This document shows positions 6,561-41,198 of a DNA stretch of 42,657 nt, piece by piece. The stretch covers positions 1-42,657 of IMG/VR virus record IMGVR_UViG_3300018476_000020; one strand, 5' to 3'. A program made the position numbers and the translations under genes. The notes under the pieces were generated by a model. The model made no database searches, was not told the DNA's origin, and saw only the letters and a program-made list of their open reading frames with translations. Within the stretch, counting starts at the first letter, position 1. The number at the start of each line of letters is the position of its first letter. Origin of the DNA: a virus.

Positions 6561-6597
6561 GGGTCTCTTCATTACATGAGTTGTCAATCCTGCGATA
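6561..6597 (-). promoter_or_regulatory. Repeated promoter-like element, copy a
   Basis: On the minus strand: TATCGCAGGATTGACAAC, then TCATG, then TAATGAAGAGACCC. It lies between the stop at 6601 and the 55-aa gene. The TGTAAT/TAATGA box stands 16 bases after TCGCA. There is no canonical -35 at standard spacing: the TTGACA here is only seven bases from the box. It shares TCGCA, ACAAC and TAATGA with nine other copies. Confidence 0.75.
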
Positions 6598-7609: not shown

Positions 7610-8047
7610 TCATGCCACAGACAAACCGATACGCCTGAATTGGCGTCCGTCTGCATCTGGAAATTTCCCATTGAGGTGACCGGATAGAACGGTTTCTGGA
7701 ACTCCAGTGGCAAAGGATGCTTGACGTTGTGAAAGCCAAGCTTCTCCAGTGTTGACATCTTCAACAACATAGCCTGGCGATCCAGTGCCACCTCGATGCA
7801 CAGTTGTTTCCACCTTGGTCTCTTGTCGATTAGAGAAAAGTGAAAAAGGCTGCACGGTAACCCTTACGGGTCCATCCACCACTCCTCGAGCGGTGGCGTG
7901 ACGGCCTTTCATTACTAGCGTTGTCAAACCTACGGAAGCAAGCGCAACGCCAAGGCCAGAATATAGCGCCTTATGCTTCTCGATGTGCGTCTTGACTTCT
8001 TCCTTGATCTTGTGATCTCGGTAAGCAGCCTTGATTTCTTCTCGCAT
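7610..8047 (-). CDS. Membrane-anchored protein with NUMOD1-like DNA-binding C-terminus
   Basis: 145 aa. I choose the ATG at 8047 because TAAGGAG stands seven bases upstream. An ATG at 8101 would start inside a U-rich leader. Residues 1-27 are a charged helix. Residues 28-46 (ALYSGLGVALASVGLTTLVM) are a membrane span. The C-terminus (about 95-142) contains VNTGEAWLSQRQASFATGV, LSGHLNGKF and DGRQFRRIG, the pattern of NUMOD1 modules in homing endonucleases, which contact DNA. No nuclease domain is present. It may tether DNA to the membrane (inference). Confidence 0.6.
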   Translation of the reverse strand: MREEIKAAYRDHKIKEEVKTHIEKHKALYSGLGVALASVGLTTLVMKGRHATARGVVDGPVRVTVQPFSLFSNRQETKVETTVHRGGTGSPGYVVEDVNTGEAWLSQRQASFATGVPETVLSGHLNGKFPDADGRQFRRIGLSVA

Positions 8048-8188
8048 GATTCTCCTTAAAATTAGGATTGGAACAAAACAAAAAGAGAAGCTAGGGTTCA
8101 TAGCCCATCGAAAACTATGATTTTGCAGTTAAGCTCCTGCACCAGGTGGGTAGGTCTTTCACCTACGCATTCGTGTCTCACCTTCTTC
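8048..8188 (-). promoter_or_regulatory. Structured leader upstream of the NUMOD1-like gene
   Basis: About 140 bases lie between promoter copy c and the start at 8047. The leader holds a perfect hairpin (GTAGGT-GAAAG-ACCTAC in the transcript, 8150-8166) and, nearer the gene, GCTA-TGAACCC-TAGC followed by TTCTCTTTTTGTTTTG, a weak terminator-like element. A 27-32-codon frame crosses the first hairpin but lacks a convincing start. The layout suggests transcription attenuation. No known riboswitch recognised. Confidence 0.4.
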
Positions 8189-8222
8189 TCTCTCATTAGA
8201 GACGTTGTAAATCCTGCGATAT
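8189..8222 (-). promoter_or_regulatory. Repeated promoter-like element, copy c
   Basis: On the minus strand: GATATCGCAGGATTTACAAC, then GTCTC, then TAATGAGAGAGAAG. It overlaps the last codons of the HTH gene, whose C-terminal ISQDLQRL is encoded by the element itself. It is followed by the structured leader of the NUMOD1-like gene. Confidence 0.7.
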
Positions 8223-8871: not shown

Positions 8872-8888
8872 TAACTTCCTTTCGGTAG

Positions 8889-8919
8889 GTCTCATTATAC
8901 GAGTTGTTTAGGTTGCGAC
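8889..8919 (-). promoter_or_regulatory. Repeated promoter-like element, copy b
   Basis: On the minus strand: GGTCGCAACCTAAACAAC, then TCG, then TATAATGAGACC. This copy has a perfect TATAAT. It lies between the last late gene and the first early gene, so early transcription restarts here. Confidence 0.75.
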
Positions 8920-23196: not shown

Positions 23197-23694
23197 TCAC
23201 CTCCTTCGTGCTTTTTCCCTAGCCAAAGCTTGACGCGGGGTCATTGTCGTTTGCTTTCTTGGTCTAGCAAGCTCCCTTTCAAGCATGGCTTTGGTTCTAT
23301 TAGTGGAAGATCTTCTAACAGCCGGAGGAACACTAGCACTACCTTGAGATTCCCAGAATTGTTTTCTGGTCATGGCCGGATTACGACTAATGTATTTCGT
23401 ACCAGCGGCAATCTTTGAAAAATCTGCATTGCCGATTTTATCGTAATCAATTTTCGGACCATACTCTCTTGGTTTGACCAATCCGAGCTTTTTAGCTCCG
23501 GCTCTTGCTAAAATTCCTGCAGCTAATGAACCACCAACAAGAGCTACTGCTTGAAGAGCAGCCTTTTGATCTGGTGACAACTTTTTCTTCTTAGAAGTCT
23601 TTACTCTGCCTTTACGTGCATTTCGGACACCCCACTTTTGACCCTTTACGCCGTAGTGTTCGAGAAAGTCGCTTACATCTTCGTCGATAATCAT
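23197..23694 (-). CDS. Small tagged head-associated protein A (HYGVKGQKWGVR)
   Basis: 165 aa, highly basic. Residues 1-25 include IIDEDVSDFLEHYGVKGQKW and GVRNARKGR. Similar tags occur on minor head proteins of many Gram-positive phages. After a basic linker a hydrophobic Gly/Ala-rich span (ALQAVALVGGSLAAGILARA) and a long basic tail (RKQTTMTPRQALAREKARRR) follow. It lies between terminase/tagged genes and the portal. I infer that the tag targets it into the prohead and that the basic tail can bind DNA, with the span possibly inserting into a membrane on ejection. Confidence 0.65.
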   Translation of the reverse strand: MIIDEDVSDFLEHYGVKGQKWGVRNARKGRVKTSKKKKLSPDQKAALQAVALVGGSLAAGILARAGAKKLGLVKPREYGPKIDYDKIGNADFSKIAAGTKYISRNPAMTRKQFWESQGSASVPPAVRRSSTNRTKAMLERELARPRKQTTMTPRQALAREKARRR

Positions 23695-23719: not shown

Positions 23720-24121
23720 TTACATCTTTCGGGCAGCCTGGTTAAAGAAGATTTGTGCGGCAACTGCTCCGCCGGTTAGAGCAAGAATTGCAAAGGCTTC
23801 CTTCTTGTTCTTTGCCTGCTGAGCCTTATCAATATTGGCCATCTTTTTGTCTCGAGCCTTCTGCAAAATCTTTCTTGCTTCATAGCTGCCTTTTGTGGCC
23901 TTGTTGGACTTGTAGTCCTTTTTGGCCTGCTTCCACTCAGCCTTAGCCTCTCCACTCTTGATCTTTTCTCGAGCCTTAGTTACCTCACGACCATGCTTTT
24001 CATAGTCTTTTCCTCTGGCTTTCTTGTTAAGAGCTCGATTCTGCTTACGACGGACTCCCCACTTCTGGCCTCTGACGCCATAGTGTTCGAGGAAGTCTTC
24101 TACATCTCCGTCGATGATCAT
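23720..24121 (-). CDS. Small tagged head-associated protein B (HYGVRGQKWGVRR)
   Basis: 133 aa. The N-terminus IIDGDVEDFLEHYGVRGQKW with GVRRKQ is nearly the same as in the next protein. A strongly charged Lys/Glu helical middle follows, then a hydrophobic C-terminal span (AFAILALTGGAVAAQIFFNQ). The ATG overlaps the terminase stop as ATGA. It shares the tag and a single hydrophobic span with protein A but not the rest, so the tag is a module joined to different cargo. Confidence 0.65.
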   Translation of the reverse strand: MIIDGDVEDFLEHYGVRGQKWGVRRKQNRALNKKARGKDYEKHGREVTKAREKIKSGEAKAEWKQAKKDYKSNKATKGSYEARKILQKARDKKMANIDKAQQAKNKKEAFAILALTGGAVAAQIFFNQAARKM

Positions 24122-25880: not shown

Positions 25881-26255
25881 TTAAATGGTGATGCCCTTCT
25901 TCTTAAGAGCGTTTCTAACAGCAAGCATACCAACACCAGTAAGTGCGGTCACTGCAATTCCCTTGGCCGCGCCAAGCACAATGTCCTCAGCAAACTTCTT
26001 ACCCTGCGTTTGCTTTGCCGAATTCAGATCCTTGTACTGCTTCTCCATCTGCAATCGTTTGATTCGATCTTGGAGTTGCTTGTCTGTGAGCTGAGCCGGC
26101 TTCTTTGTGTACTTCGTCTTGCTCGCTTGCCGCTTCTTCTTGAATTCACTATTACTTACGCCACCTCTTCCTGCGCGTCGAACGCCCCACTTCTGGCCTC
26201 TGACGCCGAAGTGTTCGAGATGATCTTCCAAGTATTCTTCGAAAGTCTGATTCAT
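25881..26255 (-). CDS. Small tagged head-associated protein C (HFGVRGQKWGVRR)
   Basis: 124 aa from the ATG at 26255, which follows GGAGGTACC and overlaps the upstream stop as ATGA. A longer frame would begin inside the preceding gene. The tag is TFEEYLEDHLEHFGVRGQKW and GVRRAGRGG. A Lys/Gln-rich charged helix and a hydrophobic C-terminus (LGAAKGIAVTALTGVGMLAV) follow. It is a third copy of the tag on unrelated cargo, on the other side of the terminase gene from copies A and B. Confidence 0.65.
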   Translation of the reverse strand: MNQTFEEYLEDHLEHFGVRGQKWGVRRAGRGGVSNSEFKKKRQASKTKYTKKPAQLTDKQLQDRIKRLQMEKQYKDLNSAKQTQGKKFAEDIVLGAAKGIAVTALTGVGMLAVRNALKKKGITI

Positions 26256-26626
26256 GGTACCTCCACTTCTTCTGGCGGCAATGGGTACAACTGCACTTCC
26301 CGAAATACGTTCAACCTCCACTCATACTCTTGAATCTGCCGGTTCGCGGCTTCGATCAAGAACGAAGTGGCGGGTGGATCAAATAACATGCGAACCTTTA
26401 GGAACACATAGGTCTTTACAAGATTCATTTGATTATCCGGAACAAGAAAATCGCTCCAGATCGCCGTATCATCCACAACGAAGAAACCTTCGTCGGGACC
26501 CACTCCCAATTGATTCAAAATCGAGAAAGCGGCGTTGATGTGCGTGAGAATATCAAGATCGAAGGCGACGTAATTTGCCGAAATTCCAAGAATCTTCTTT
26601 GTACTGATTAGAATACTAGGTTCCAT
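26252..26626 (-). CDS. Head-tail connector-like protein (gp6-like)
   Basis: 124 aa. ATG start after AAGGAGG. It contains ILISTKKILGISANYVAFDL, DILTHINAAFSILNQLGVGP, VVDDTAIWSDF and LVKTYVFLKVRMLFDPPATS, which is the helical adaptor pattern seen in gp6-like connectors. Its unusual location, upstream of terminase and not with the other connectors, could mean a different role. By sequence pattern I still prefer the connector assignment. Confidence 0.6.
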   Translation of the reverse strand: MEPSILISTKKILGISANYVAFDLDILTHINAAFSILNQLGVGPDEGFFVVDDTAIWSDFLVPDNQMNLVKTYVFLKVRMLFDPPATSFLIEAANRQIQEYEWRLNVFREVQLYPLPPEEVEVP

Positions 26627-28462: not shown

Positions 28463-30226
28463 TTAAACGGCACGAACGTAGCCGATGCCCATTCCTTGAC
28501 GACTTCCGGTCGGGGTTCCAAACGGATTTGGTGGTGGTACTCCGACTCCAACGTTTCTATAAAGAGCATTGTTAGCGGCTGTTGGCGGAGGATTCGTTGG
28601 TTCATAAACCAGTTCGTTATAAACACCAGAAGGAACGCCTCTAAAAACCACAGCTTGTGGACCAGGTCCTGAATTATATATACCAAAGAAATAGATTCCA
28701 GCAGGAACTATCGTGTCAAATAACGCAGTTTTCGTTCCTGTAGTATCGGTTGGTATAGATGGCGTCATAGTGATTAATGCTCCAGGCATACCATTTGGTA
28801 GGACTTCATAAATACAAAGTATAGAAACCGACCCTGCTGTAGCCGCAGTAGTCACGAAAAAACAGCCTTCATTAATTGGAACATCCCAATGACCACGTGT
28901 AAGCCGAATATCTCCATTCATAGCTGGAGTAACTGAACTAACCCCACTCGAAAAGTTCCATGCTTGAAGCCAAGCTCCAGATGGTGCTAATTTAGGAACC
29001 GGATTGCCGCCACCTCCGGTGTCAAGATCTGGAATCTGCGCAATTGGTATTTTGCGGTTAGCATCAAGGCTGGCATAACCGTTGGCTTGCCCCTTATACA
29101 TTATTCGCTCAAGGTTTGCGTGAGATGAGCTTTGGGTATTATGATTGGCTAATCCCTGGGTGACAAAGATTCTTGGTACCGCATCATTATTACCACCAAA
29201 ATCACCAACTCGGATTGCGCCACCATAGTACGCCCAAGCATCATTTGGATTAGCTACCCATTCGGGTCCTACGTAATCACTTCCACCACCGCCAGATGGA
29301 GCATCAGTAATAACATACAGCGTTTCCGGATCTGGCGTGACAATAGCATCATACTCAGCCTGTGTAAGACTAACGATTGGTACATCGCCATCCTCACCTG
29401 GAGGACCTGGAACGGTAGATGGGGCACCTTCTGGACCCGCTGGACCTTCCGGGCCTATAGGACCTTGCGGACCCGGAACTGTTGAGGCTGCTCCTTGAGG
29501 ACCTGCTGGGCCTTCCGGGCCTGTAGGGCCTGTTGGGCCAGGGACAGTTGAGTCGGCACCTGTAAGACCGATAGGGCCTTGTGGGCCTGCTGGACCTTCT
29601 GGACCCACTGGACCTGGAACTGTTGAATCAGCGCCCGTAAGACCGATAGGACCTTGAGGCCCTTCTGGGCCCGCTGGACCCGGTACCGTTGAGTCAGCGC
29701 CAATAGGACCTGCCGGACCAATGGGACCCGCTGGACCTGGAACTGTTGAATCAGCACCTGTAGGACCCGTAGGACCTTCTGGACCAATCGGACCTGCCGG
29801 ACCCGTGGGTCCTGGTACCGTTGAATCAGCTCCCGTTGGACCTGTCGGGCCGATAGGACCCGTAGGACCTGCTGGACCTGGAACGGTTGAGGCTGGACCC
29901 GTTGGACCTGTCGGGCCTGTAGGACCTTGCGGGCCATCCGGACCTTCTGGGCCTGGGACAGTTGATGGATCACCTTGTGGACCTCTTGGGCCTGTTGGGC
30001 CTGTAGGACCTTGCGGACCCGCTGGTCCTGGAATCGTAGACTCTGGACCTTCTGGACCAATAGGACCTTCTGGACCGGGAGGTCCTACCGCACCAATTCC
30101 ACTGGTAACTACTTCAACAACATCCAGAGAGTCGTTAGCGACTACGTCAATGACTTCTGGAGATGAAGTTGTTACAACCTCTACAACAACTTCACCACCT
30201 TCGATAACCTCGATCGTACTAGTCAT
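28463..30226 (-). CDS. Collagen-like tail fibre
   Basis: 587 aa. ATG overlapping the upstream stop as ATGA. An N-terminal beta-type domain with Val-rich repeats ([30 protein letters not shown]) precedes a collagen-like rod of Gly-Pro-X triplets (about residues 55-280), divided by returning ADSTVPGP-type spacers. A soluble C-terminus (about 300-587) follows, including [39 protein letters not shown]-like text, and [19 protein letters not shown]. The rod is likely trimeric and the C-terminus the receptor-binding end. The repeats could let the rod expand or shrink by recombination. Confidence 0.9.
29390..30090. repeat. Collagen-coding DNA repeats
   Basis: Short near-identical DNA units of about 9-45 bases code for GPxGPxG and STVPGP. 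They are variants of a few codon blocks (GGACCT/GGCCCT). The array keeps an open frame on the complementary strand too, which is an artefact of the repeat. Confidence 0.9.
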
Positions 30227-30573
30227 CAGAACACCGCCGAGTTGGTAATATCCTGCTTAACAACAACTTCTCCAGCAAGCAAAGTGTATACTTCTGTCGG
30301 AGAAAATGTAACTTCAAGATCCCAATACCCCTTGGCCGGAGTCGAACTGGCCCACTGGGCGGGAACGAGATGAATTGTGATTGTGTTCGGGAGAGTGACG
30401 ACACAAGTAAACGCTAAAACACTTGCTCCTCCCGGCTTATCGCGAAACTCTGCTTCAGCAACAGCACCAGTTAGATCGAATGGAGTGCCATTTATAGTAG
30501 TTTCCCAAAAACGAAATCCACGACTAAAGGTGTCGCCACGATATAGGTTCAGGTCATACTCCCCCTGTTCCAT
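30226..30573 (-). CDS. Small beta-type fibre/baseplate accessory protein
   Basis: 115 aa from the ATG at 30573, nine bases after AGGAG. The ATG nine bases earlier touches the ribosome-binding site. It contains [39 protein letters not shown] and [20 protein letters not shown], which resembles small Ig-like/BppU-like accessory proteins next to fibre genes. Its end is ATGA-coupled to the collagen-like fibre, so it may help anchor that fibre. Confidence 0.65.
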
Positions 30574-30817
30574 CAGATTCATCTCCTTTCTCTTCCAGTC
30601 GTTGTTTCCAAATTAGGGCAGCGCCCGCACCTAGAAAACCTGCCGTGGCCCCTGTGAGGACGCCGCCCAAACCTGATAAAAGTTGGATTCCTGCATCAGA
30701 AACACTATCGTCCAAAGCAGCAGCCAGCATTGCGCTCGCCCACCCTGCCGAGGTAAATAAGGCAACGACAAAGGCTGTTGCTCCCACCCAACTCGATAGA
30801 GTGCGAGGCTGTTTCAT
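30554..30817 (-). CDS. Holin
   Basis: 87 aa from the ATG at 30817, in an ATGA overlap with the endolysin stop and with GGAGCATATTGC upstream. Two hydrophobic spans: SSWVGATAFVVALFTSAGW and GIQLLSGLGGVLTGATAGF plus FLGAGAALIW, with a polar loop (AALDDSVSDA) and a charged C-terminus ([13 protein letters not shown]). This and its pairing with endolysin fit a class II-type holin that opens the membrane at lysis time. Assignment by topology and neighbourhood. Confidence 0.75.
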   Translation of the reverse strand: MKQPRTLSSWVGATAFVVALFTSAGWASAMLAAALDDSVSDAGIQLLSGLGGVLTGATAGFLGAGAALIWKQRLEEKGDESDGTGGV

Positions 30818-31554
30818 GCAATATGCTCCGGAGGTACGCCCGGCGTGTGCTGAGCAATAATGCTTGTGTTCCAATACACCTGACTATCAGTAACCTCTGG
30901 GTAGGTAGATGCCCACCACGGATCGACATCCCAAATGGTTGAATCCATCTCGAGAACCGTCAACATGATCTGGTCACCGCCGAGCATCTGCTCGTTAGGA
31001 ACAAGGACGCGATGAACGCCGTTCCACCGATAGACCTTTCCATCATAACGAATAAGTGCGAACATTTGATCCTTTCCGATCTCTGGTAGTGGCTTTACTC
31101 CACCTTGGATTCCTGTGGCCAGATCTGCCGGCGAGCAGTCTGCTTCGTAGTGCATGGCGTCTTTGTTGTTGGACCACGATCCGCCCCATTCCCAGACTCG
31201 ACATCCGTTGTTGGTTCGGAGGCCTGTGATCGCATCCACCATTCCCTGAGGCATGTCCGTAATGAGATTGGGTCCATAAGGATTGCTGCTCCAGTTCAGA
31301 TCTAGTGCGATGCCATACGCGTGCAGACTGTAGCCAGACCCACCTGTGATCTGACGACAATTATACGCTCCTGTATCAGATGCTCGAGTACGGTAGTCCC
31401 AGTCTACGAGAATATCGTTAAGGCGATTTACCGCTTCCACCATTCGAGGATCAACAGTAACGCGACCACCACCATGTAGAGTAATAGTAACGAAGCCAGA
31501 AGAATTACAAGGAGGGTCCCAAACATCACGGAGCTGGCTTGTATTCAGACCCAT
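30814..31554 (-). CDS. Endolysin, M15 (VanY-like) peptidase
   Basis: 246 aa. ATG with AAGGAGGTAGAGGACG upstream. The peptidase domain (about residues 25-150) has the metal site YSLHAYGIALDLNW (SxHxxGxAxD) and a second His in DAMHYEADCS, which completes the zinc triad of the M15 family. It should cleave peptide cross-links in the host wall. The C-terminal 90 residues (KDQMFALIRYDGKVYRWNG, DQIMLTVLEMDSTIWDVDPW) may be a cell-wall-binding part. Paired with the holin just after it. Confidence 0.9.
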   Translation of the reverse strand: MGLNTSQLRDVWDPPCNSSGFVTITLHGGGRVTVDPRMVEAVNRLNDILVDWDYRTRASDTGAYNCRQITGGSGYSLHAYGIALDLNWSSNPYGPNLITDMPQGMVDAITGLRTNNGCRVWEWGGSWSNNKDAMHYEADCSPADLATGIQGGVKPLPEIGKDQMFALIRYDGKVYRWNGVHRVLVPNEQMLGGDQIMLTVLEMDSTIWDVDPWWASTYPEVTDSQVYWNTSIIAQHTPGVPPEHIA

Positions 31555-31669
31555 CGTCCTCTACCTCCTTGTCTTCGTCCGAGTTCACACCATGCTCGGC
31601 GACCTCGTCCATGTTGGCGTGAGGATCTTCCTTGTCGTCATCTCCAAAGAGACGATCACGAAGATTCAT
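31526..31669 (-). CDS. Acidic small protein, 47 aa
   Basis: ATG at 31669 after AGGGGGATGCCG. It is MNLRDRLFGDDDKEDPHANM followed by a very acidic tail ending EYKPAP. It overlaps both neighbours slightly, ending 28 bases inside the endolysin gene. It may be a small cofactor. No family recognised. Confidence 0.5.
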   Translation of the reverse strand: MNLRDRLFGDDDKEDPHANMDEVAEHGVNSDEDKEVEDDGSEYKPAP

Positions 31670-31802
31670 CGGCATCCCCCTCGACGGATGCATCAGTTGA
31701 CTCCGTGTTATCATCGGTATCACGGACGGCATCTGCTTCATCAGCAAGAATTTCCTTCACACGCTCTTCAACGGATTCTGGATCAACAGCTTCGTCACTC
31801 AT
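31656..31802 (-). CDS. Acidic small protein, 48 aa, first gene of late block
   Basis: ATG at 31802 with TAGGAGAAACCA upstream. It reads MSDEAVDPESVEERVKEILA and then a low-complexity acidic tail (TDDNTESTDASVEGDADESS). It overlaps the next acidic gene by 14 bases. It follows the GC-rich terminator at 31851-31931, so it leads the late block. Confidence 0.55.
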   Translation of the reverse strand: MSDEAVDPESVEERVKEILADEADAVRDTDDNTESTDASVEGDADESS

Positions 31803-31850
31803 TGGTTTCTCCTATGCTAAAAGTCGGATTGTTTGGTCCAAAATTTCCAT

Positions 31851-31931
31851 CGGGGGAAAAATATAGGGCCGGCGATGTGGGAGGGGGGCTAGATTGCGAA
31901 GACCTCCCCCCCGGATGGCGAGGTAGGCCCA
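31851..31931 (-). terminator. GC-rich terminator separating RNA polymerase-like block from late block
   Basis: Minus-strand GGGCC (from 31930-31926) pairs with GGCCC (31870-31866). Inside these, a run of G (31912-31906) faces a run of C (31889-31882). TATATTTTTC follows. It lies after the 77-aa gene and 49 bases before the first late gene, so late transcription needs a new promoter or read-through. Confidence 0.7.
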
Positions 31932-31944
31932 AGCAATTTTAATT

Positions 31945-32178
31945 TTATCTAATAACTTTCTTCCAAACACCAGAAACATTTTCTTTTACAATCTCATCAA
32001 TTGCTTGTTCAAGTGCTAAATCTTGATCAGCTTCAGAGAGTTCATCTGAAAGCATTGTAACTCTACCTAGGAAGGAAGAGGTACAGTACCCTGCTCTTTC
32101 ATCCCATGCGTACCATTCATCGAACTGATCGAAGGGGTCATAAGGATTGTCTATGGTGGTTAGCATCACCTCACTCAT
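31945..32178 (-). CDS. Small acidic partner of RNA polymerase-like gene
   Basis: 77 aa. ATG at 32178. An alternative start is four codons in (MLTTIDNPYDP). It contains MLTTIDNPYDPFDQFDEWYA, GYCTSSFLGRVTMLSDELSE and ADQDLALEQAIDEIVKENVS. I recall this small family next to DFDGD-motif genes in phages, which suggests a co-factor of the polymerase. Acidic and helical. The link is contextual, not demonstrated. Confidence 0.65.
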   Translation of the reverse strand: MSEVMLTTIDNPYDPFDQFDEWYAWDERAGYCTSSFLGRVTMLSDELSEADQDLALEQAIDEIVKENVSGVWKKVIR

Positions 32179-32203
32179 TAGATACTACACTCCTCTCTAC
32201 TAC

Positions 32204-34879
32204 TCAACCAAGAGTAGCAACGTCAAGCGTTGTCAATGATACACCAAGCTGCTCTGCTATGTCAGCTCTATCATAGCCTAGTGCTAGCATGTGTAGTGCA
32301 CGCTTAGTCTTAGCTGACGTCATTAGCTTAGCCTTGGGTGGAGTAGCCAACTCTTTGATTCTATCTAGGTCTGCGTTGTCTAGTATCTCTTTGAGCTTGC
32401 TGTTACTGATAGCGCCTGCTTGAATAGCTTCCCATTCCTTATCAGTAATGTCTACTCTAAACTTCTGTGCACCAGTGCGCACTCTTGCCTCAGCTAGGGC
32501 ACGATACCTTTCCTTCTTCTTTGTATCATTGTCCATCTGTGGATTCGCATTGATCTTAGCTCTTAGTATTGTGTTACCAACTACTTGTGCTTGCCTCTCT
32601 AGGGGCTTGTTCTTTATGGCCCGGTCTAATTTGTGGGTGAGGGAGTCAACTTCAGTCTTGTATGCCGCTTTAGCAGAGGCATCTTGTTTGATACCGGGGG
32701 TATTAAAAGCCTCTAGCCTAGCCGCATTAGCCATGGCCTTGAGCCTGTTGGAATGGTTGGCATAGATGCGCTCTACCTGGGTGTTAGCAGTGGACACCAG
32801 TGCATGGGCATCTGATTCAATGGCCAGCCACTTTACTTTCTCCTGCTTGGGTACTCGTTCACCCTTCCTATTGGTAGTTGTCTTACCACTGGGCTCATAC
32901 TTAAGTTCACCAGTGTTGACATCAATAGGACCACCTAGCTTAGAAGTCCTAGGCTTTCTTAAATCAATACGGACATCCTTACCAGCCCTAGAAAGAAGCG
33001 TTGCTGCACCAGCATTAGAGCGCCCTTGATACTCTGCCTTAAGCTTAGCTATGTTGTTTCTTCTTTCAGATTCCTTGAAGTTCAGCTTATGCTTGTGTGC
33101 ATCAATGACTACCATCGAATGACGAACTGCCCTAACCATGTGTTCTGGTGGGGCACCCTTGATTGTCATGTCGGTGATGAGGTTGGAGATCTTACCCATC
33201 TCTTGCTGGGTTCTCTTCTTTGACATCACCTCCATTCCATCATACCCTTTGTATTCCTCATGTGGTTTGAAGTTCTTCAAACCTTCCAAGGCTGGAGAAG
33301 CCTTGATCCTACCTTTGCCATTCGGTATGACCAGGACGGTATCACCATCAAAGTCTGCGCCTGACAATCTCTCAGCAACACTATGATGAATACCAACAGC
33401 ATGCTTGGCATCACGAAGAAGACGCTTGGCTTGAGGGTTGCGGTTGTTGACGGTTAGTTCTGGAATCTCAAACGTACCACCATGTGGATAACGAATGAGC
33501 GCAACTCTTTCTCCTGCCTCGAAACCAGGTGCGTAAATCTCAGTAGGACGCATCTTTGTGATTGGCAAGATAGCACGCCAGCTTTGACGAGGGAAAGACG
33601 CAGCCTCTAGGTGAACTGCTGAGGCATCGGTTCCATCAGCAAAGGCCTCAAGCAACCTCTTCCTAACCGTAGGGTTGGTCAACGCCTTTATGCTATCCAA
33701 CTCACCCTTACGGTTCTCGAATGTCATGTCGAGCTGTGCTTTAGCAAGGGCGGGGGATTGTTTTGACAACATCTGTGCCGAAACATTCTTACCCCACTTA
33801 GACCAATCGCCTTCTTCATTGACGATGTTCATAACTGAGGTAAGTTTATCCTTACCGTTCTTACCAGTGACTACGATTTGACGAGCGATGTTCGCTCCAA
33901 ATGGATTCTCTGCTTCGGCGTGTGGTTCAACCTTCTTCAAAACATCCATTTTACTAACATCGTGCCCTTTGTCTGTATGAAAGAGAACATCAATCCCATC
34001 CGGCATGTCATGATGATACATGGCCATGCCCTTGAGATATCGATCCTTTCCAACTAGAACACGAACCTGAGCATATCGAGATTGGCCAAGAGAAATATCC
34101 TCTACGCCTTCTCTAACATACATCACTCCATCAGATTTGCTACCACCATCAGGACCATAAACAATCCCAACTCGCTTCGGATCAAGAGACATTGGGGGTT
34201 GAAGCCGATGCTTTGTTTTGCCACCATCCTCAGACCACTGCCCAGTCTGTTGAATTTTGTCTCGATTCATCCAAGCTTGTTTTTGTGTGGTTACATCTGG
34301 AGTACAAAGAACTTTCATTCGAGTGTCTTTGCCTGTTCCAAGCTGTGGAACATTAACTGGCCAAACCTTGTACCCCTCTTGCTTAAGTATTTCAACCGCA
34401 GTCCTAAGTCTTTCTTGACTTACTCCAATTCTATTCTCTACCCCAACGCCAATATCAAGATACTTCTTCGAGTCAACTTCTTCACGAAGCAAGTCGGCTA
34501 TAGTTGAAAGACGATCGTTCTTTTCCTTAGCACCTGGAGCAAGAAGCGTACGAACAGTAGGCTCAGGAATTCCCATGTGTCGACCAATTGCCGAAGGTCC
34601 CCAACCCTTATCCTTCAAGGCCCACGCTTGATTGATCTGAGACTGCTTCCTTTCGTTCCTAGCAATTGTTTTTCTAGCTCGATACTCTGTGCTAGAAATC
34701 TTCATTGCCCTGAAGATCTCTGAGTCGTTCATTCCTTCGCCCTTGAGCTGTTGAATGAACCCTAGAAAATCTTCGTTATTGGTGTCGGCATTCAATCCAC
34801 CAGATCCCCAAGGATATCTTCCAGACTTACGAGGCGTACCAAAGTGCGCCAAATAATCTTCTTCGTTTATGGTTACCAA
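32204..34879 (-). CDS. DFDGD-motif RNA polymerase-like protein (YonO-like), possibly virion-carried
   Basis: 891 aa. TTG start with GAAGGAGGCAGACCG upstream, overlapping the previous gene by seven bases. Residues 505-513 read LSGADFDGD, the metal-binding motif of the beta-prime subunit of cellular RNA polymerases and of single-subunit phage relatives such as YonO and crAss-like virion polymerases. A possible first barrel, EIYAPGFEAGERVALIRYPH, precedes it. The N-terminus starts EDYLAHFGTPRKSGRYPWGS, a tag also seen on phage virion proteins. HTH-like helices lie at about 45-115 and in the last 30 residues (GYDRADIAEQLGVSLTTLD). I infer an RNA polymerase carried in the capsid. The second barrel's residues cannot be confirmed by eye. 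Confidence 0.75.
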   Translation of the reverse strand: MVTINEEDYLAHFGTPRKSGRYPWGSGGLNADTNNEDFLGFIQQLKGEGMNDSEIFRAMKISSTEYRARKTIARNERKQSQINQAWALKDKGWGPSAIGRHMGIPEPTVRTLLAPGAKEKNDRLSTIADLLREEVDSKKYLDIGVGVENRIGVSQERLRTAVEILKQEGYKVWPVNVPQLGTGKDTRMKVLCTPDVTTQKQAWMNRDKIQQTGQWSEDGGKTKHRLQPPMSLDPKRVGIVYGPDGGSKSDGVMYVREGVEDISLGQSRYAQVRVLVGKDRYLKGMAMYHHDMPDGIDVLFHTDKGHDVSKMDVLKKVEPHAEAENPFGANIARQIVVTGKNGKDKLTSVMNIVNEEGDWSKWGKNVSAQMLSKQSPALAKAQLDMTFENRKGELDSIKALTNPTVRKRLLEAFADGTDASAVHLEAASFPRQSWRAILPITKMRPTEIYAPGFEAGERVALIRYPHGGTFEIPELTVNNRNPQAKRLLRDAKHAVGIHHSVAERLSGADFDGDTVLVIPNGKGRIKASPALEGLKNFKPHEEYKGYDGMEVMSKKRTQQEMGKISNLITDMTIKGAPPEHMVRAVRHSMVVIDAHKHKLNFKESERRNNIAKLKAEYQGRSNAGAATLLSRAGKDVRIDLRKPRTSKLGGPIDVNTGELKYEPSGKTTTNRKGERVPKQEKVKWLAIESDAHALVSTANTQVERIYANHSNRLKAMANAARLEAFNTPGIKQDASAKAAYKTEVDSLTHKLDRAIKNKPLERQAQVVGNTILRAKINANPQMDNDTKKKERYRALAEARVRTGAQKFRVDITDKEWEAIQAGAISNSKLKEILDNADLDRIKELATPPKAKLMTSAKTKRALHMLALGYDRADIAEQLGVSLTTLDVATLG

Positions 34880-35433
34880 CGGTCTGCCTCCTTCATAGCC
34901 TCGATCTTCAGGTCAAAGTCAACGATGGTATTCATGATTGCTTCAATAGTTTCAGGAAATGGTTCAAACACTCGAATCTCGTCTCTCTGGTAGATACGAA
35001 GTTCAATTTCGATTTCGAATGGTGAAATACTATACTCTAAACAGAATATAGCAGCATACACTTGAAGTTGCTTTTCTGAAGATGGTGTAAGTCCAGTCTT
35101 AAGATCATGAATCCTAAGTTTGTTTCTTCTGAAGGATATGGTATCGGCATGACCGAAGCAATTATCCGAATAGAACAGAAGTTGCTCAGGAACCATCTTG
35201 TAAGATATAGCATCATTCACATAGGTAGACATGGATTGATTTGACTTGGATAACTTGACACCAAGCCTAACTGCTTCATGAGCAAGCGCATGTAAATCAG
35301 TACCACGCCTAGCCGACATTGATGCAAAATATCGTGTTTGCAGCTTCTGATCGTCGTAATTGATCCAGTGATATGTGCTAGGACTTAGAAACGCATGCTT
35401 CCCCTGAAGGTCGGAACGCCGATTGAAGATCAT
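34873..35433 (-). CDS. Cas4-like / PD-(D/E)XK exonuclease
   Basis: 186 aa from the ATG at 35433, 6-7 bases after GAGGAGG. A longer frame starts inside the upstream gene. Core motifs: RGTDLHALAHEAV, FGHADTISFRRNKLRIHDLK with TG (PD-(D/E)XK-like D and DLK), and QLQVYAAIFCLEYS. This is the pattern of Cas4/RecB-type nucleases, which process DNA ends in phage recombination or replication. The four Cys of iron-sulfur Cas4 proteins are not apparent, so I call it Cas4-like only by fold pattern. Confidence 0.7.
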   Translation of the reverse strand: MIFNRRSDLQGKHAFLSPSTYHWINYDDQKLQTRYFASMSARRGTDLHALAHEAVRLGVKLSKSNQSMSTYVNDAISYKMVPEQLLFYSDNCFGHADTISFRRNKLRIHDLKTGLTPSSEKQLQVYAAIFCLEYSISPFEIEIELRIYQRDEIRVFEPFPETIEAIMNTIVDFDLKIEAMKEADRW

Positions 35434-35695
35434 TAAATACGGCCTCCTCATTCTCCGGATATAGGAAAGCAGCAAAAGACATGTCGTTCATTTTCTGAAT
35501 GTAATACGTTTGATTTGGTTGATTCCTTGCGTTTACAGACAGTTTGATCTCAAGAGCAGCCCAACGATCATTATAGAAAACCGTCAGATCTGGAATACCT
35601 TGTCGATAACCAGCATCGTTCTTGAGGACGACACATCCTGGAAAATACGTTTCGAGCTTGTGAATGATTTGTGTTTGGTATTGTCGTTCGTTCAT
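35378..35695 (-). CDS. VRR-NUC domain nuclease
   Basis: 105 aa. ATG with GGGAGGAGC upstream. Motifs: RQYQTQIIHKLETYFPG, DAGYRQGIPDLTVFYND (PD), RWAALEIKLS (ExK) and QPNQTYYIQKMNDMSFAAFL. This fits the VRR-NUC nuclease family, structure-specific DNA nucleases common near phage helicases. The last 56 bases overlap the Cas4-like gene. The repeated promoter element (copy d) stands about 40 bases upstream of its start, so it may head an operon with the nuclease and the RNA polymerase-like gene. Confidence 0.85.
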   Translation of the reverse strand: MNERQYQTQIIHKLETYFPGCVVLKNDAGYRQGIPDLTVFYNDRWAALEIKLSVNARNQPNQTYYIQKMNDMSFAAFLYPENEEAVFNDLQSAFRPSGEACVSKS

Positions 35696-35735
35696 GCTCC
35701 TCCCATACAGAATGAAAAATAGTCGTCAAACTCTT

Positions 35736-35765
35736 TCCTCTCATTAGATACGTTGTTTGCGATAT
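35736..35765 (-). promoter_or_regulatory. Repeated promoter-like element, copy d (short form)
   Basis: On the minus strand: TATATCGCAAACAACG, then TATC, then TAATGAGAGGAAAGAG. Four bases of the usual middle are missing, so the TCGCA-to-TAATGA distance is shorter than in the other copies. A TTTGACGACT lies just downstream. Confidence 0.55.
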
Positions 35766-35778
35766 AGGAGCATACTCA

Positions 35779-36273
35779 CTACAGAATCACGTAGGTATGC
35801 CAATACGGAAATATAGAATCTCCGCTATAGCATGATCTGAATACTTCAATGAATAAACATCCCTCAGCCGTAGCCGCTTCTACAATAGATTTGTATTCTA
35901 TTCCAAGCTCAGTATTCATGACTGGCAAGGTGTAGTAATGAGGCGGATATACTTCTCCGAATTGATGACGATACTTCCAAGCAAACCACCTAGGACGCCA
36001 TAGAAGATTCTCTACACGTAAATTGGTCCGGTCATTGTCTTTACAGATCACCGCATCAAATATCTGAGATTTCTCAGGAACGAACGTATCGGCCACCAAG
36101 ACTTTCACAGACACAGTACGCCTTACCCCCTCCTGCCACAGGGAAAGCTTCACATCTCCGTACTTGGTTAGGCTAGTTCGCATGACATACCCGTTTAGCC
36201 TGGCAACTCTTCCATACGTGCTCACCATGTAATCTGGGAAATTCCAGATGTACTCCCAAACTTCTTCATCCAT
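35779..36273 (-). CDS. NUMOD4/HNH-type protein with degenerate catalytic site
   Basis: 164 aa. ATG after AAGGAGATCACA. The N-terminus EEVWEYIWNFPDYMVSTYGR matches NUMOD4. The HNH core is altered: SLTKYGDVKLSLWQEGVRRT and VLVADTFVPE, then AVICKDNDRTNLRVENLLWR where active members have His-containing VNHxDGdxxN. The C-terminus has EYKSIVEAATAEGCLF, NUMOD1-like. Loss of the catalytic His predicts DNA binding without cleavage. It could be a regulator or a decayed homing nuclease. Confidence 0.75.
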   Translation of the reverse strand: MDEEVWEYIWNFPDYMVSTYGRVARLNGYVMRTSLTKYGDVKLSLWQEGVRRTVSVKVLVADTFVPEKSQIFDAVICKDNDRTNLRVENLLWRPRWFAWKYRHQFGEVYPPHYYTLPVMNTELGIEYKSIVEAATAEGCLFIEVFRSCYSGDSIFPYWHTYVIL

Positions 36274-36532
36274 TGTGATCTCCTTGCGTCATTTCTGAAA
36301 AATATACAAAGGAAAAACCTTTTTGTGAAAACGTCACTGTATACTCCCTCTATACAACAGGGTGGGAGTATGAAGTTAAAAAATATAGAAAACTCTTTGA
36401 AAGTGTTTTGCCTCATTTTGTCAAACTCTTATTTTAGCCAAAATCCCAGTAAACATAAGGGTTTTGAGGCTTTTTGGGGGTGCGTCAAAACCGTCAAAAC
36501 TAAAGTCTTCCGTCTCGACGCCTGCCCACACG
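36274..36532. other. AT-rich intergenic region with TTTTGACG repeats and dyads
   Basis: The longest non-coding stretch in the early region. On the minus strand it holds TTTTGACGGTTTTGACGC (36483-36500), TTTGACAAAATGAGG (near 36413-36428), a dyad ATACTCCC (36341-36348) / GGGAGTAT (36364-36371), a small AAAGG-AAAAA-CCTTT hairpin, and TATATTTTT. Candidates are a promoter/operator for the helicase gene's neighbours, or a replication origin. No clean sigma70-like -10 at 16-18 bases from the TTGACA. Confidence 0.4.
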
Positions 36533-37708
36533 TCACAATTCTCCACCCTCAGTAATGAACTTCTTCTCGTTGAAACTGCGCTTTTGGCCCAAGCTCTTCC
36601 TTACGGACAGGTCGATGGTCGAATTTGACGTAAGCATGTAGTAGTACAAAACATCGAATTCAGTGTCCAATCTGTCGATTCTGCCCTGTGCCTGGACGAA
36701 ATTCTTGTACGAATACGTCAAGGAATACAGAATCATGGCGTTGGTAGACGTGCAATTCCACGCTTCTGCCCCAGCAACGTACTGTACGAGATATACCCAC
36801 CTGTCCTCTTGAGGCACCGGGTCTTTCTGATGACCATTCCATTCGAATACGCCTATGTACCGGCTCAGACTTCTCAGGATCTCTAGCTCGTAGTTGAAAT
36901 TGTAGAAAATTACCAATCTTGGGTGACACTTCATCAAACAATGGACCATCTCCAATCGCGAGGGGTCTGTATTTACTACCTTACGCATTACACGGAACAT
37001 CTCAGATATGTCCTTGAGCGGCCTGTCCTCATAGACGTGCCATCGATTCTTGACTACCTGTGTGTAGAGGGATTCGTCATAGCTCACGTCCATCCAGTTC
37101 GTGTTCTTTGTGGTGTGCTTGAGATATGGCATCTCCACCAGGACCTCATTACGCAACAACTCGAGCTTACTCTCGTTGATGTAGCCCTTGACCTTCGGGT
37201 ACTTGGCAAAGGCCTCGTAGATAACGTGCTTCCACTTGAATTCGGTGATGTTCTTGTAGTATCCATTGGCGATGAATATGGGAGCATAGTCAAGCCATAC
37301 GTCACCTGGAGTAGCAGTGAGTAATATCCAGGGATTGTTGCGTGCGATCTTGATGAATGATTTCACCCAAGAACCCGTACCGACAACCCTCTGCTCATCG
37401 AATATGAAGAAGGTGTTTGTGTACTCGGTGTACTTACCTATGTTGTTCCACGAGTCCACGAATATGGTCCCATGGACAGTTGCATCCTCCTCAGCACCAA
37501 TACCGAACTTTGCGGCCTCTCCCTGCCAATCTAGAGTGTCACGCTTCTTAGCTGTCGTAATGACGACGATGTTGTGATCGGACAGATTCTCCACGTACCA
37601 TGCGAGAACCGTCATAGACTTTCCTGCACCTACACCACCCCAGAGAACCTTACCGCTCGAGAGGTGTTCGATTGCTGCCTTCTGATGAGGCATTAACTCT
37701 ACAGCCAT
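36533..37708 (-). CDS. SF2 (SNF2-like) DNA helicase
   Basis: 391 aa. ATG with AAGGAGATTAT upstream. Motifs in order: Q-like PHQKAAIEHLSSGKVLWGG, Walker A GGVGAGKS (about residues 24-31), DEQR box in FFIFDEQRVV, motif III LLTATPGD, and motif VI QAQGRIDRLD. The protein is short for an SNF2 family member but keeps both RecA-like lobes. It should move on or unwind DNA in replication or recombination. A terminator lies 11 bases before the start. Confidence 0.9.
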   Translation of the reverse strand: MAVELMPHQKAAIEHLSSGKVLWGGVGAGKSMTVLAWYVENLSDHNIVVITTAKKRDTLDWQGEAAKFGIGAEEDATVHGTIFVDSWNNIGKYTEYTNTFFIFDEQRVVGTGSWVKSFIKIARNNPWILLTATPGDVWLDYAPIFIANGYYKNITEFKWKHVIYEAFAKYPKVKGYINESKLELLRNEVLVEMPYLKHTTKNTNWMDVSYDESLYTQVVKNRWHVYEDRPLKDISEMFRVMRKVVNTDPSRLEMVHCLMKCHPRLVIFYNFNYELEILRSLSRYIGVFEWNGHQKDPVPQEDRWVYLVQYVAGAEAWNCTSTNAMILYSLTYSYKNFVQAQGRIDRLDTEFDVLYYYMLTSNSTIDLSVRKSLGQKRSFNEKKFITEGGEL

Positions 37709-37718
37709 ATAATCTCCT

Positions 37719-37752
37719 TAGACAAAAAGGAAAGCCGTTGTGGCTCTCCTCT
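37719..37752 (-). terminator. Terminator between the 61-aa gene and the SF2 helicase
   Basis: Minus-strand AGGAGAGCC-ACAAC-GGCTTTCCT forms a stem, followed by TTTTTGTCTAAGG. The tail overlaps the ribosome-binding site of the helicase gene, so termination and helicase expression are alternatives. Confidence 0.8.
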
Positions 37753-37761
37753 TGAATATCA

Positions 37762-37947
37762 CTATCGGGTTCTGTGGTCCCAGTTTCCTCGTGTGTCCTC
37801 GATGACACCCATGCGCATAAGGCATAGCTTACACGTAACATCCTCTTCAGATTCGGTGGTATCGAATCCTCTTTGGATCATTCGTATGTTGCCTACACAA
37901 TATGGGCGATGTGGTGCATCGACGTTCAACAAGTGAATCTTTCTCAC
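37762..37947 (-). CDS. Small Cys-containing protein, 61 aa
   Basis: GTG start with GAAAGGAACATT upstream. It contains VDAPHRPYCVGNIRMIQRGF, TTESEEDVTCKLCLMRMGVI and EDTRGNWDHRTR. A single Cys (YC) and a CxxC (CKLC) could form a small zinc site with a nearby His. It lies between promoter copy e and the terminator before the SF2 helicase, forming a one-gene unit. Function unknown. Confidence 0.6.
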   Translation of the reverse strand: MRKIHLLNVDAPHRPYCVGNIRMIQRGFDTTESEEDVTCKLCLMRMGVIEDTRGNWDHRTR

Positions 37948-37962
37948 AATGTTCCTTTCGTA

Positions 37963-37996
37963 GTGGGTTCATTATAAGAGTTGTTTCCACTGCGAG
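37963..37996 (-). promoter_or_regulatory. Repeated promoter-like element, copy e
   Basis: On the minus strand: TCTCGCAGTGGAAACAAC, then TCT, then TATAATGAACCCACTACG. It has a perfect TATAAT and directly follows the T-tract of the terminator at 37993-38028. It serves the 61-aa gene. Confidence 0.75.
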
Positions 37997-38028
37997 ACAA
38001 AAGCTAAACCCCTTGCGGGATATAGCCT
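37993..38028 (-). terminator. Terminator after the 60-aa gene, before promoter e
   Basis: Minus-strand GCTA-TAT-CCC-GCAA-GGG-GTT-TAGC, then TTTTGTCTCG. It shares the apex CCC-GCAA-GGG with other members. The T-tract runs straight into promoter copy e. Confidence 0.85.
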
Positions 38029-38034
38029 TTGGAA

Positions 38035-38217
38035 TCACTTCCAAGTAACTTCGGCTTGGGTAATAAGAACTTGCGCGATCTTCTTCGCTTGGTCGTAGTC
38101 GACTCCGTACGTCTTGTTCACCAGCTTGTTAGCCAATTCATTGACTTCATGCTGTTGATCAGCGTACTTCGATGCGACTTCACCAGCAAAGCTCAGTGCG
38201 TTCTTGAACTTGCCCAT
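38035..38217 (-). CDS. Small charged helical protein, 60 aa
   Basis: ATG at 38217 with AAAGGAGACCGAC upstream. It reads MGKFKNALSFAGEVASKYAD, then QQHEVNELANKLVNKTYGVD and YDQAKKIAQVLITQAEVTWK. It is alpha-helical and amphipathic without a clear span, the second of the small genes in the array between 37762 and 39627. No function known. It ends next to terminator 37993-38028. Confidence 0.6.
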   Translation of the reverse strand: MGKFKNALSFAGEVASKYADQQHEVNELANKLVNKTYGVDYDQAKKIAQVLITQAEVTWK

Positions 38218-38236
38218 GTCGGTCTCCTTTGTAGTG

Positions 38237-38268
38237 GGTTCATTAGAGGCGTTGTAAAACATACGGAG
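38237..38268 (-). promoter_or_regulatory. Repeated promoter-like element, copy f
   Basis: On the minus strand: CTCCGTATGTTTTACAAC, then GCCTC, then TAATGAACCCACTAC. It is the most diverged at the first box (CCGTA instead of TCGCA). It serves the 60-aa gene at 38035-38217. Confidence 0.65.
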
Positions 38269-38299
38269 ACAAAACCTAAAGCCCTTGCGGGCGATAGGC
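38266..38299 (-). terminator. Terminator after the 60-aa membrane gene
   Basis: Minus-strand GCCTATCG-CCC-GCAA-GGG-CTTTAGG, then TTTTGTCTCC, which abuts promoter copy f. It is nearly the same as the terminator at 38544 in apex and tail. Confidence 0.85.
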
Positions 38300-38482
38300 T
38301 CAATAGCGATCAAGCACTTCTTGGGGGTAACCTTGCTTCTTCATCCAACGCTTGGTGCGCTTATCACTGATCTTCTCCTTCACTGCAAATACTGCAATGC
38401 CAGTTACGGCACCAACAGCAATTGCGAGTGAAAGCTTTCCAACAGTCATTTCGCTTCCATCTTCGTAGGTCTTAATAACCAT
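38300..38482 (-). CDS. Small single-pass membrane protein, 60 aa
   Basis: ATG with TTAAGGAGACATC upstream. It reads MVIKTYEDGSEMTVGKLSLA with a membrane span in LAIAVGAVTGIAVFAV and then KEKISDKRTKRWMKKQGYPQ, a positively charged C-terminus. Topology is N-out/C-in by the positive-inside rule. One of five or more small membrane proteins in the early array. Confidence 0.65.
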   Translation of the reverse strand: MVIKTYEDGSEMTVGKLSLAIAVGAVTGIAVFAVKEKISDKRTKRWMKKQGYPQEVLDRY

Positions 38483-38506
38483 GATGTCTCCTTAATAGGG
38501 GTTGAT

Positions 38507-38541
38507 CTCTCTTCATTACATACGTTGCAAATCCTGCGATA
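38507..38541 (-). promoter_or_regulatory. Repeated promoter-like element, copy g
   Basis: On the minus strand: TATCGCAGGATTTGCAAC, then GTATG, then TAATGAAGAGAGATC. It comes right after the terminator at 38544-38579 and serves the 60-aa membrane gene. Confidence 0.8.
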
Positions 38542-38543
38542 AG

Positions 38544-38579
38544 GAGACAAAACCTAAAGCCCTTGTGGGGCCTTAGGCG
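38544..38579 (-). terminator. Terminator after the 53-aa gene
   Basis: Minus-strand CCTAAGG-CCCC-ACAA-GGG-CTTTAGG, then TTTTGTCTCC. It is placed eleven bases after the stop of the 53-aa gene and directly before promoter copy g. Confidence 0.85.
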
Positions 38580-38588
38580 TGAAATAGG

Positions 38589-38750
38589 TCACCGATTGAC
38601 TCGGTAGTTGACCTGCTTGGCATATGCGCGACGGCCCTGTGCAGCACTAACAGCGTTGAGCAGCTTCGCAGCAGCGGTTACTGCGAGGCTACCAACGATG
38701 ATCGTGGTAACGGGGTCCTTCTCGAATTGTGCCTTCAGCTTGTCAATCAT
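38589..38750 (-). CDS. Small single-pass membrane protein, 53 aa
   Basis: ATG at 38750 with GAAAAGAGATTCAG upstream. It reads MIDKLKAQFEKDPVTTIIVG, with a span TTIIVGSLAVTAAAKLLNAV, and ends in a basic GRRAYAKQVNYRVNR. Translation length and the ribosome-binding site support it. It sits between promoter copy h and the terminator at 38544, forming a one-gene unit. No function known. Confidence 0.65.
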   Translation of the reverse strand: MIDKLKAQFEKDPVTTIIVGSLAVTAAAKLLNAVSAAQGRRAYAKQVNYRVNR

Positions 38751-38770
38751 CTGAATCTCTTTTCGTTGAG

Positions 38771-38803
38771 GGTCTCTTCATTACATGAGTTGTTATTTCT
38801 GCG
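38771..38803 (-). promoter_or_regulatory. Repeated promoter-like element, copy h
   Basis: On the minus strand: TTCGCAGAAATAACAACTC, then ATG, then TAATGAAGAGACCC. It follows the terminator at 38804-38838 without a gap and serves the 53-aa gene. Confidence 0.8.
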
Positions 38804-38838
38804 AAGACAAAAGGAAAAGCTTTGTGGGCTCTTCCTCT
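38804..38838 (-). terminator. Terminator after the 68-aa gene
   Basis: Minus-strand AGGAA-GA-GC-CCACAAA-GC-TT-TTCCT, then TTTTGTCTTC. It belongs to the shared terminator family. The tail runs into promoter copy h. Confidence 0.85.
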
Positions 38839-38844
38839 TGAATA

Positions 38845-39051: not shown

Positions 39052-39070
39052 TTCGGTCTCCTGATTAGGT

Positions 39071-39107
39071 TGAGGTCTCTTCATTACAAGCCCTGTTATT
39101 CCTGCGG
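39071..39107 (-). promoter_or_regulatory. Repeated promoter-like element, copy i
   Basis: On the minus strand: CTCCGCAGGAATAACAGG, then GCTTG, then TAATGAAGAGACC. It overlaps the end of the 72-aa gene (stop at 39096) and serves the 68-aa gene. No terminator lies before it, unlike copies e-h. Confidence 0.75.
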
Positions 39108-39314: not shown

Positions 39315-39426
39315 CAGTCTCCTTATGGATTATTTCGCGTCGGGCTATTACGATGAAATATGAGAGAACACAGATAAGACATAAACCAAAACCACAAAAT
39401 AGCGCAAAGCCCCATGGATCTCTCAC
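39286..39426 (-). CDS. Small membrane protein, 46 aa, GTG start
   Basis: GTG at 39426 with GAGGAAAAAG upstream. It reads VRDPWGFALFCGFGLCLICV then LSYFIVIARREIIHKETDEA, one hydrophobic span with a charged C-terminus. It overlaps the 72-aa gene by 29 bases. Coding status is supported by its start site, its span and the fit between neighbouring genes. Confidence 0.5.
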   Translation of the reverse strand: MRDPWGFALFCGFGLCLICVLSYFIVIARREIIHKETDEAQEENHL

Positions 39427-39438
39427 CTTTTTCCTCGA

Positions 39439-40772: not shown

Positions 40773-40849
40773 ATAAAGAGGCTGTCGCATCGCTTTATCG
40801 GGTGCAAACTAAGTATGTTAAGTCTGCTGGCCTTAGGCGAGCGGTGTAT

Positions 40850-40881
40850 CTCTCATTAGTAGCGTTGTAATTCTTGCGATC
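40850..40881 (-). promoter_or_regulatory. Repeated promoter-like element, copy j
   Basis: On the minus strand: GATCGCAAGAATTACAAC, then GCTAC, then TAATGAGAGATACACC. It overlaps the stop of the upstream 105-aa gene. About 140 bases with a terminator lie between it and the 70-aa gene. Confidence 0.75.
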
Positions 40882-41197: not shown

Positions 41198-41198
41198 A

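Follow-up and report, generated by a model that had tools for sequence, protein, structure and literature searches.

Whether a phage may bring its own RNA polymerase (RNAP) into the cell, and which promoters such an enzyme would use, is the question raised by one gene of the IMG/VR virus record IMGVR_UViG_3300018476_000020, analyzed here over its full 42,657 nucleotides (the window). The open reading frame (ORF) in question lies at 32204..34879 on the minus strand, begins with TTG directly downstream of GGAGG, and encodes a protein of 891 amino acids. A first-pass annotation, made from the sequence, had suggested that this protein is injected with the DNA and that repeated elements in the early region could be its targets. 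The reading favored here, which we regard as likely, is of a virion-carried DNA-dependent RNAP that is loaded by an N-terminal tag and starts the non-structural genes at phage-specific promoters. It draws on the predicted fold, the conservation of the tag and a promoter-like sequence family that co-occurs with the polymerase, all computed here; packaging by the tag, injection, catalysis and promoter recognition are the steps that we infer from them. The protein family is already catalogued as phrog_4291; an account of it as a tag-sorted virion polymerase with promoters of its own did not come up in the literature searched here.

Fold, motifs and family of the polymerase

Searches of the PDB by sequence, with the single protein (2 matches) or with an 18-sequence profile (19 matches), returned no clear polymerase, so that a comparison of folds was needed. 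The matches were mostly repeat or helix-turn-helix (HTH) proteins, with one tape measure chain (E 0.47) around the catalytic motif, and an NCBIfam scan gave chance-level matches only. A structure predicted from 56 aligned relatives, 55 of them drawn from a set of 107 loci, reached a mean predicted local distance difference test (pLDDT) value of 81.6 and a predicted template modeling (pTM) score of 0.66, with residues 1-36 below a pLDDT of 50. Foldseek ranked QDE-1 first (E 3.7e-9), followed by P74-26 gp62 and P23-45 gp64 (E 2e-6 to 3e-6) and by plant RDR2. In VIA-align comparisons, QDE-1 gave Z 17.8 at 4.5 A over 373 aligned residues, plant RDR2 gave Z 17.6, the non-virion RNAP of the P23-45 gp64 type gave Z 13.8, and the largest subunits of RNA polymerase II gave Z ~10 over roughly residues 426-620. 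The alignment of the QDE-1 type, to a single chain, spans residues 226..724 and places both barrels in one chain; the check for a double-psi barrel that the first-pass annotation had recommended, once run on the predicted structure, ended in a match to two-barrel RNAPs over this region. On the evidence of the model, the window protein is almost certainly a two-barrel, single-chain RNAP, and presumably a catalytically active one. For the N-terminal region (residues 1-225), compared alone, the matches were to winged-helix and HTH proteins and did not exceed Z 7.6; they may reflect no more than a common arrangement.

The metal motif LSGADFDGD was found where the first reading had placed it, at residues 505-513 (33341..33367, minus strand), within the predicted double-psi barrel region. 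Across the 56-sequence alignment the motif with its three aspartates, K283 and numerous residues of the barrels do not vary, an invariance that carries a fetch bias, many of the aligned loci having been retrieved with GADFDGD as the pattern. K283 opens the segment KGMAMYHHDMPDGID (residues 283-297; 33989..34033, minus strand), in which G284 and P293 are likewise invariant and which we take to resemble the beta-subunit barrel signature. A further conserved stretch in the alignment, GKISNLITDMTIKGA...HSMVVIDAHKH (residues 562-597; 33089..33196, minus strand), pairs with GEYSNNITK of YonO. When the polymerase was compared by hhalign with a 19-member YonO profile, RYPH stood in register with RSPH, DFDGD with DNDGD and SNLIT with SNNIT, at a weak overall score (E 0.014 in one comparison, probability 3%). 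HTH-like helices at both ends, also part of the first reading, are present in the model: the N-terminal segment (residues 86-111; 34547..34624, minus strand) matches Pfam HTH_23 above its cut-off (26.9 against 24.6 bits), and the C-terminal one (residues 862-885; 32225..32296, minus strand) matches Sigma70_r4_2 below its cut-off (20.7 against 25.7 bits).

The ORF is a full-length member of phrog_4291, which bears the name 'RNA-dependent RNA polymerase' (1210.9 bits, residues 3-886/891). A protein search of isolate phages returned 250 records with the polymerase family, 249 of them with a match over 80% or more of the query's length, in which Arthrobacter (95), Gordonia (55), Streptomyces (54) and Lactococcus (13) were the dominant hosts; most of the matches listed label the homologue a helix-turn-helix protein. 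Identity to the window polymerase was 38% for Lactococcus phage 1706 orf75 and 50% for ReqiPoco6 gp106. A profile-guided scan of IMG/VR revealed at least 511 stretches encoding the family, and a search of a plasmid collection gave zero matches. In one IMG/VR locus, L116, an in-frame stop separates the N-terminal part of the polymerase from the DFDGD part (1510-3045 and 3046-4425), through either recoding or decay to a pseudogene.

A promoter-like element in the non-structural regions

The repeated promoter-like elements to which the first reading had drawn attention proved to be real. The element is 34 bp long, of the form CGCA-n4-TTACA-n5-TATAATGA, and the window holds 11 minus-strand copies of CGCAggatTnACAACnnnTnTAATGA, all of them in its non-structural part; the interval from 31.9 down to 9.1 kb has none. 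In leave-one-out scoring the copies ranged from 12.7 to 40.4 bits, as compared with a mean of 10.7 and a maximum of 14.8 for the best match per shuffle in 20 shuffles. Copy 1 lies at 40845..40878, with TAATGA from 40858, and the matrix placed copies 2 to 6 at 39073..39106, 38770..38803, 38505..38538, 38232..38265 and 37961..37994. Copy 7 (35733..35766), upstream of the exonuclease and polymerase genes, is the weakest, with the score of 12.7 bits. The first copy past the tail genes is copy 8 (8884..8917), which is followed by copies 9 to 11 at 8185..8218, 7901..7934 and 6561..6594, these four also being placed by the matrix. Terminator-like hairpins (GCCC-n-GGGC and a T run) at 38552-38578 and 38008-38021 on the minus strand end right before promoter-like copies, so that transcripts may be split by terminator-promoter pairs.

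An unsupervised motif search, which also yielded many codon-periodic false motifs in GC-rich genomes, returned corresponding elements in HotFries, P118 and 1706, among the matches listed. Refinement over eight genomes gave 75 sites, from which two weak ones (Rosa 28853 and Mudcat 38173) were removed to leave 73; because this refinement had taken the sites of four genomes as its starting set, its counts are not independent. Independent tests were provided by a leave-genome-out matrix scan and a frozen-matrix scan. When each genome was scanned with a matrix made from the remaining seven, 68 of the 73 sites were recovered on the coding strand, as against 2 matches on the opposite strand and 0-1.4 in each shuffled genome, and six sites beyond the list appeared (two in HotFries and one each in Rosa, Mudcat, Kardashian and 1706). 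On ten contigs from unseen polymerase genomes, of which 36.8-40 kb apiece were scanned, the frozen matrix found 7-16 coding-strand matches in each, 106 in total, and 2 on the other strand. Of five control sequences, phiC31, sk1, ArV2, GTE7 and SPBc2, three gave no match and two gave one each, the scan covering 50 of 74.4 kb of GTE7 and 49 of 134 kb of SPBc2. A tblastn search for the polymerase covered four of these controls and found none in phiC31, sk1, ArV2 or the 50 kb of GTE7; SPBc2 has YonO. In all, the element was present in 18 of the 18 polymerase genomes examined.

In annotated genomes the first copy stands directly after the tail or lysis block, and a copy in Mudcat (55517), like copy 7 of the window (35746), lies upstream of the exonuclease-polymerase genes. 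The element is shared by phages of Streptomyces, Arthrobacter, Gordonia and Lactococcus, which suggests that the factor acting on it comes from the phage and not from the host. The polymerase very probably uses these promoters, on support that is strong but circumstantial, and its HTH domains probably help to read them, possibly through contacts of the two terminal segments with the outer blocks, CGCA and TTACA.

The N-terminal tag and its proposed role in loading into the virion

The tag that had been noticed at the start of the polymerase, YLAHFGTPRKSGRYPWGS, occupies residues 9-26 (34802..34855, minus strand). Residues S19, G20, R21, Y22 and G25 are invariant in the 56-sequence alignment, and among 97 non-redundant family ORFs, counted without the loci retrieved by the tag pattern to avoid bias, SGRYxxG[ST] occurs in all 97 and an upstream HxG in 95. 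The tag region is disordered in the predicted model, and its invariance together with this predicted disorder suggests a linear sorting signal. The capsid targeting sequence of phage T4, a short N-terminal peptide that sorts internal proteins and Alt into the head, has an analogous position but an unrelated sequence.

A search of isolates with the tag only gave 250 records, as did the search with the polymerase, and the genus counts were near-identical. In IMG/VR, 80 loci were examined of 120 stretches reported to have the tag form, and they contain 82 ORFs with this form, 67 of which also hold the catalytic motif. The other 15 comprise ten that run off the end of the locus, the stop-interrupted polymerase of L116 and four other proteins: two GNAT acetyltransferases in locus L136, one protein without an assignment and one protein in L166. 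Locus L166 is a close relative of the window (TerL 75% and portal 60% identical), and there the tag in its polymerase form belongs to a protein whose gene lies between those of TerL and portal, in support of the proposed link between the tag and structural proteins. In L136, adjacent small proteins on the minus strand (154-702, 717-1211, 1544-2323 and 2770-3801), two of them GNAT acetyltransferases, have N-termini of the HYG or HYN type and are possibly injected enzymes. The claim that the tag is otherwise seen on structural proteins stands for a related form, DUF7211, found beside TerL and portal; it does not stand for the exact form, SGRYPWGSG, which among isolates is almost confined to the polymerase.

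DUF7211 is a 25-residue Pfam family of unknown function, with the form HYGV.GQKWGVRR. In three window ORFs near TerL and portal, H[FY]GV[RK]GQKWGVR stands at the start or within the sequence, as recognized by motif and Pfam: one before TerL (HFGVRGQKWGVRR; 25881..26321) and two between TerL and portal (HYGVRGQKWGVRR; 23720..24121, and HYGVKGQKWGVR; 23197..23694), all on the minus strand. DUF7211 was above its cut-off in 19 of 19 polymerase-bearing records and in 0 of 5 others, the control phages named above, a co-occurrence that may be due in part to relatedness. In many pairs of DUF7211-tagged proteins, similarity is limited to the tag. Between DUF7211 and the polymerase tag, partial matches of nine residues were found in three relatives (E 0.002-0.005, below the cut-off). 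Because the two forms reside on different proteins in the isolate set, the case for equating them depends on L166, on L136 and on the LxHYG half that both have. Pre-TerL proteins of loci L113 (14111-15727), L230 (2374-3393) and L232 (7492-9204) combine a 2'-5' RNA ligase fold with an internal DUF7211 tag.

GenBank labels bear on the presence of these proteins in virions. The homologues 1706 orf75 and ReqiPoco6 gp106 have the same tag as the window polymerase, and their GenBank records propose no function; orf75 is a 'structural protein' in the original record and an RNA-dependent RNA polymerase in RefSeq, and gp106 is also labeled 'structural protein', by similarity. The phage 1706 paper is said to have used mass spectrometry. 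Phage 1706 orf7, the sole ORF of that phage with DUF7211 matches (one of two above the cut-off), was likewise deposited as 'structural protein'. These labels and the tag point to a polymerase that is probably carried in virions. A wider reading, to which we would give a little less than an even chance, is that the HYG...WG peptide is a portable head-loading signal for unrelated proteins, which would be injected with the DNA and permit early transcription without the host RNAP. Such a signal might exist in two forms, LxHYG-SGRYPWGSG on the polymerase and DUF7211 LxHYGVKGQKWGVRR on others, an equation that we put forward tentatively and are slightly inclined to doubt. The loaded set, conceivably but by a narrow measure not the outcome that we expect, would comprise the RNAP, GNAT acetyltransferases, 2'-5' RNA ligase-like proteins and others, with many of the genes beside TerL and portal.

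Genome context, comparable systems and alternative explanations

Every PHROG-named gene of the window is on the minus strand, in the order helicase, HNH, exonuclease, polymerase, phrog_4303 protein, lysis, fibers, TerL and portal, followed by protease-capsid, tail, tape measure and then small genes. The phrog_4303 protein, identified by profile match (77 residues; 31945..32178, minus strand) and of unknown function, is the product of the gene directly following that of the polymerase. Annotated relatives, too, have a small gene in this place; they keep the gene order of the window, with the polymerase as the penultimate gene at the right-hand end, and in ReqiPoco6 the last gene is followed immediately by the cos site. 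A replicase gene (phrog_4210) is split by both contig ends (N part 3-2918 and C part 41733-42644, minus strand), and thus the window is probably a near-complete genome of ~42.7 kb, circularly opened inside that gene. Phage 1706 GP55, which occupies the matching genome position, is described as a four-in-one replicase (PMC12205980). Elsewhere in the window, the tail fiber ORF (28463-30226) contains ten tandem collagen-like repeat units with varying spacing at about 29393-30057, minus strand; two paralogues of the major tail protein, both phrog_2645 (18586-19455 and 17189-18013), flank an unknown protein, and several relatives are annotated alike; and the early region holds two phrog_2152 members of unknown function (6601-7356 and 4329-5225).

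The best fold matches, the Neurospora RNA interference polymerase QDE-1 and plant RDR2, likewise have a two-barrel, single-chain core with a DxDGD motif; they differ in being eukaryotic enzymes of RNA silencing, and the window core is without a significant sequence match in the PDB. To our knowledge, neither has such a tag or an HTH. YonO of SPbeta, a single-chain phage RNAP of about 100 kDa, is reported to transcribe late genes (PMC5467207). The window polymerase resembles it in size, in being a single chain and in the motifs that stand in register, with a weak sequence link; unlike the window phage, the YonO phage has zero DUF7211 tags by profile scan. In P23-45, gp96 is a virion RNAP fused to the tape measure protein and gp64 is a non-virion RNAP, and the P23-45 RNAPs share with the window system the two-barrel fold and repeated promoter motifs in the early region (PMC10770324). 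Unlike gp96, the window polymerase is a free-standing ORF with a short tag, and the tape measure ORF is separate (11074-15774), which rules out the type of virion RNAP that is fused to the tape measure. Gp66 of the crAss-like phage phi14:2 is reportedly a virion-packaged two-barrel RNAP with a solved chain of 2166 residues, as compared with the 891 of the window polymerase; the crAss virion RNAP (6vr4) was a weak match, 28th in Foldseek (E 0.12), and was not among the best 50 VIA-align rows. By analogy, the working mode of the window polymerase would be most like that of the P23-45 and crAss-like virion RNAPs. A literature search, with most subscription papers outside its coverage, did not find any account that treats the family as a virion RNAP, nor one of this promoter family, and a search for the tag strings found none in print.

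If the polymerase is carried in the virion, it would be made late in infection from the right-end operon, pulled into the prohead by its tag and delivered with the DNA into the cell, where it would initiate at the repeated elements and so drive expression of the small early genes as well as those for the replicase and for recombination. The late structural genes have no element and would need host RNAP or read-through. Several observations weigh against this scheme. Virion presence stands on one depositor's GenBank label, that of 1706 orf75, and the polymerase gene adjoins the helicase and exonuclease genes, outside the head block. The exact tag is nearly private to the polymerase among isolates, and a Pfam search up to E 1 gave no DUF7211 match for the window polymerase. 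The sequence likeness to YonO is weak, and the crAss virion RNAP ranks low among the fold matches. Finally, TATAAT resembles a host -10 box, and host RNAP could thus use the sites.

The position of the gene is also what would be expected of a non-virion RNAP made after infection, like P23-45 gp64 or YonO, that serves middle or late genes and uses its tag for docking to the membrane or replisome. This explanation, which accords as well with the second-best fold match, a non-virion phage RNAP, and with the element copy that precedes the exonuclease-polymerase operon in both the window and Mudcat, is nevertheless unlikely, given that the 1706 homologue was deposited as a structural protein, that the tag recurs on the L166 protein between TerL and portal, and that the structural block of the window is without element sites. 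We consider it slightly less likely again that the promoters are read by host RNAP with a host or phage sigma factor, the phage polymerase serving other genes. The TATAAT core does resemble the sigma-A -10 box, but the fixed TTACA precedes the core by ~5 bp rather than 17 bp, and CGCA lies farther away still; sigma-70 matches in 30500-42657 were fewer than in shuffles (10 against 16.8); and a single 34-bp element is common to phages of four host genera.

The names given by PHROGs and RefSeq imply a true RNA-dependent RNA polymerase acting on RNA, and the closest solved fold, QDE-1, is indeed that of an RNA/DNA-dependent polymerase. The Pfam RdRP family (PF05183) also gave a weak match to residues 500-601, at 14.7 bits under a cut-off of 23.8, and the double-stranded DNA phage lineage, the built-in HTH domains and the co-occurring promoter family make this role highly improbable. 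No more credible is a catalytically dead relic of a polymerase, kept as a structural or DNA-binding protein: the labels of the depositors, structural or HTH DNA-binding protein, would suit it, but the 56 sequences show no variation in the three aspartates, in K283 or in many residues of the barrels, subject to the fetch bias already mentioned.

If the polymerase is indeed virion-carried and tag-loaded, a common family of actinobacterial phage proteins, now labeled 'HTH DNA-binding' or 'RNA-dependent RNA polymerase', would become a small virion RNAP with a list of candidate promoters, and direct tests would be easy in cultured phages. The family would then provide a new promoter-specific polymerase for actinobacteria and lactococci. 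Its tag would represent a candidate cargo signal for the loading of proteins into phage heads, and a function would be assigned to Pfam DUF7211.

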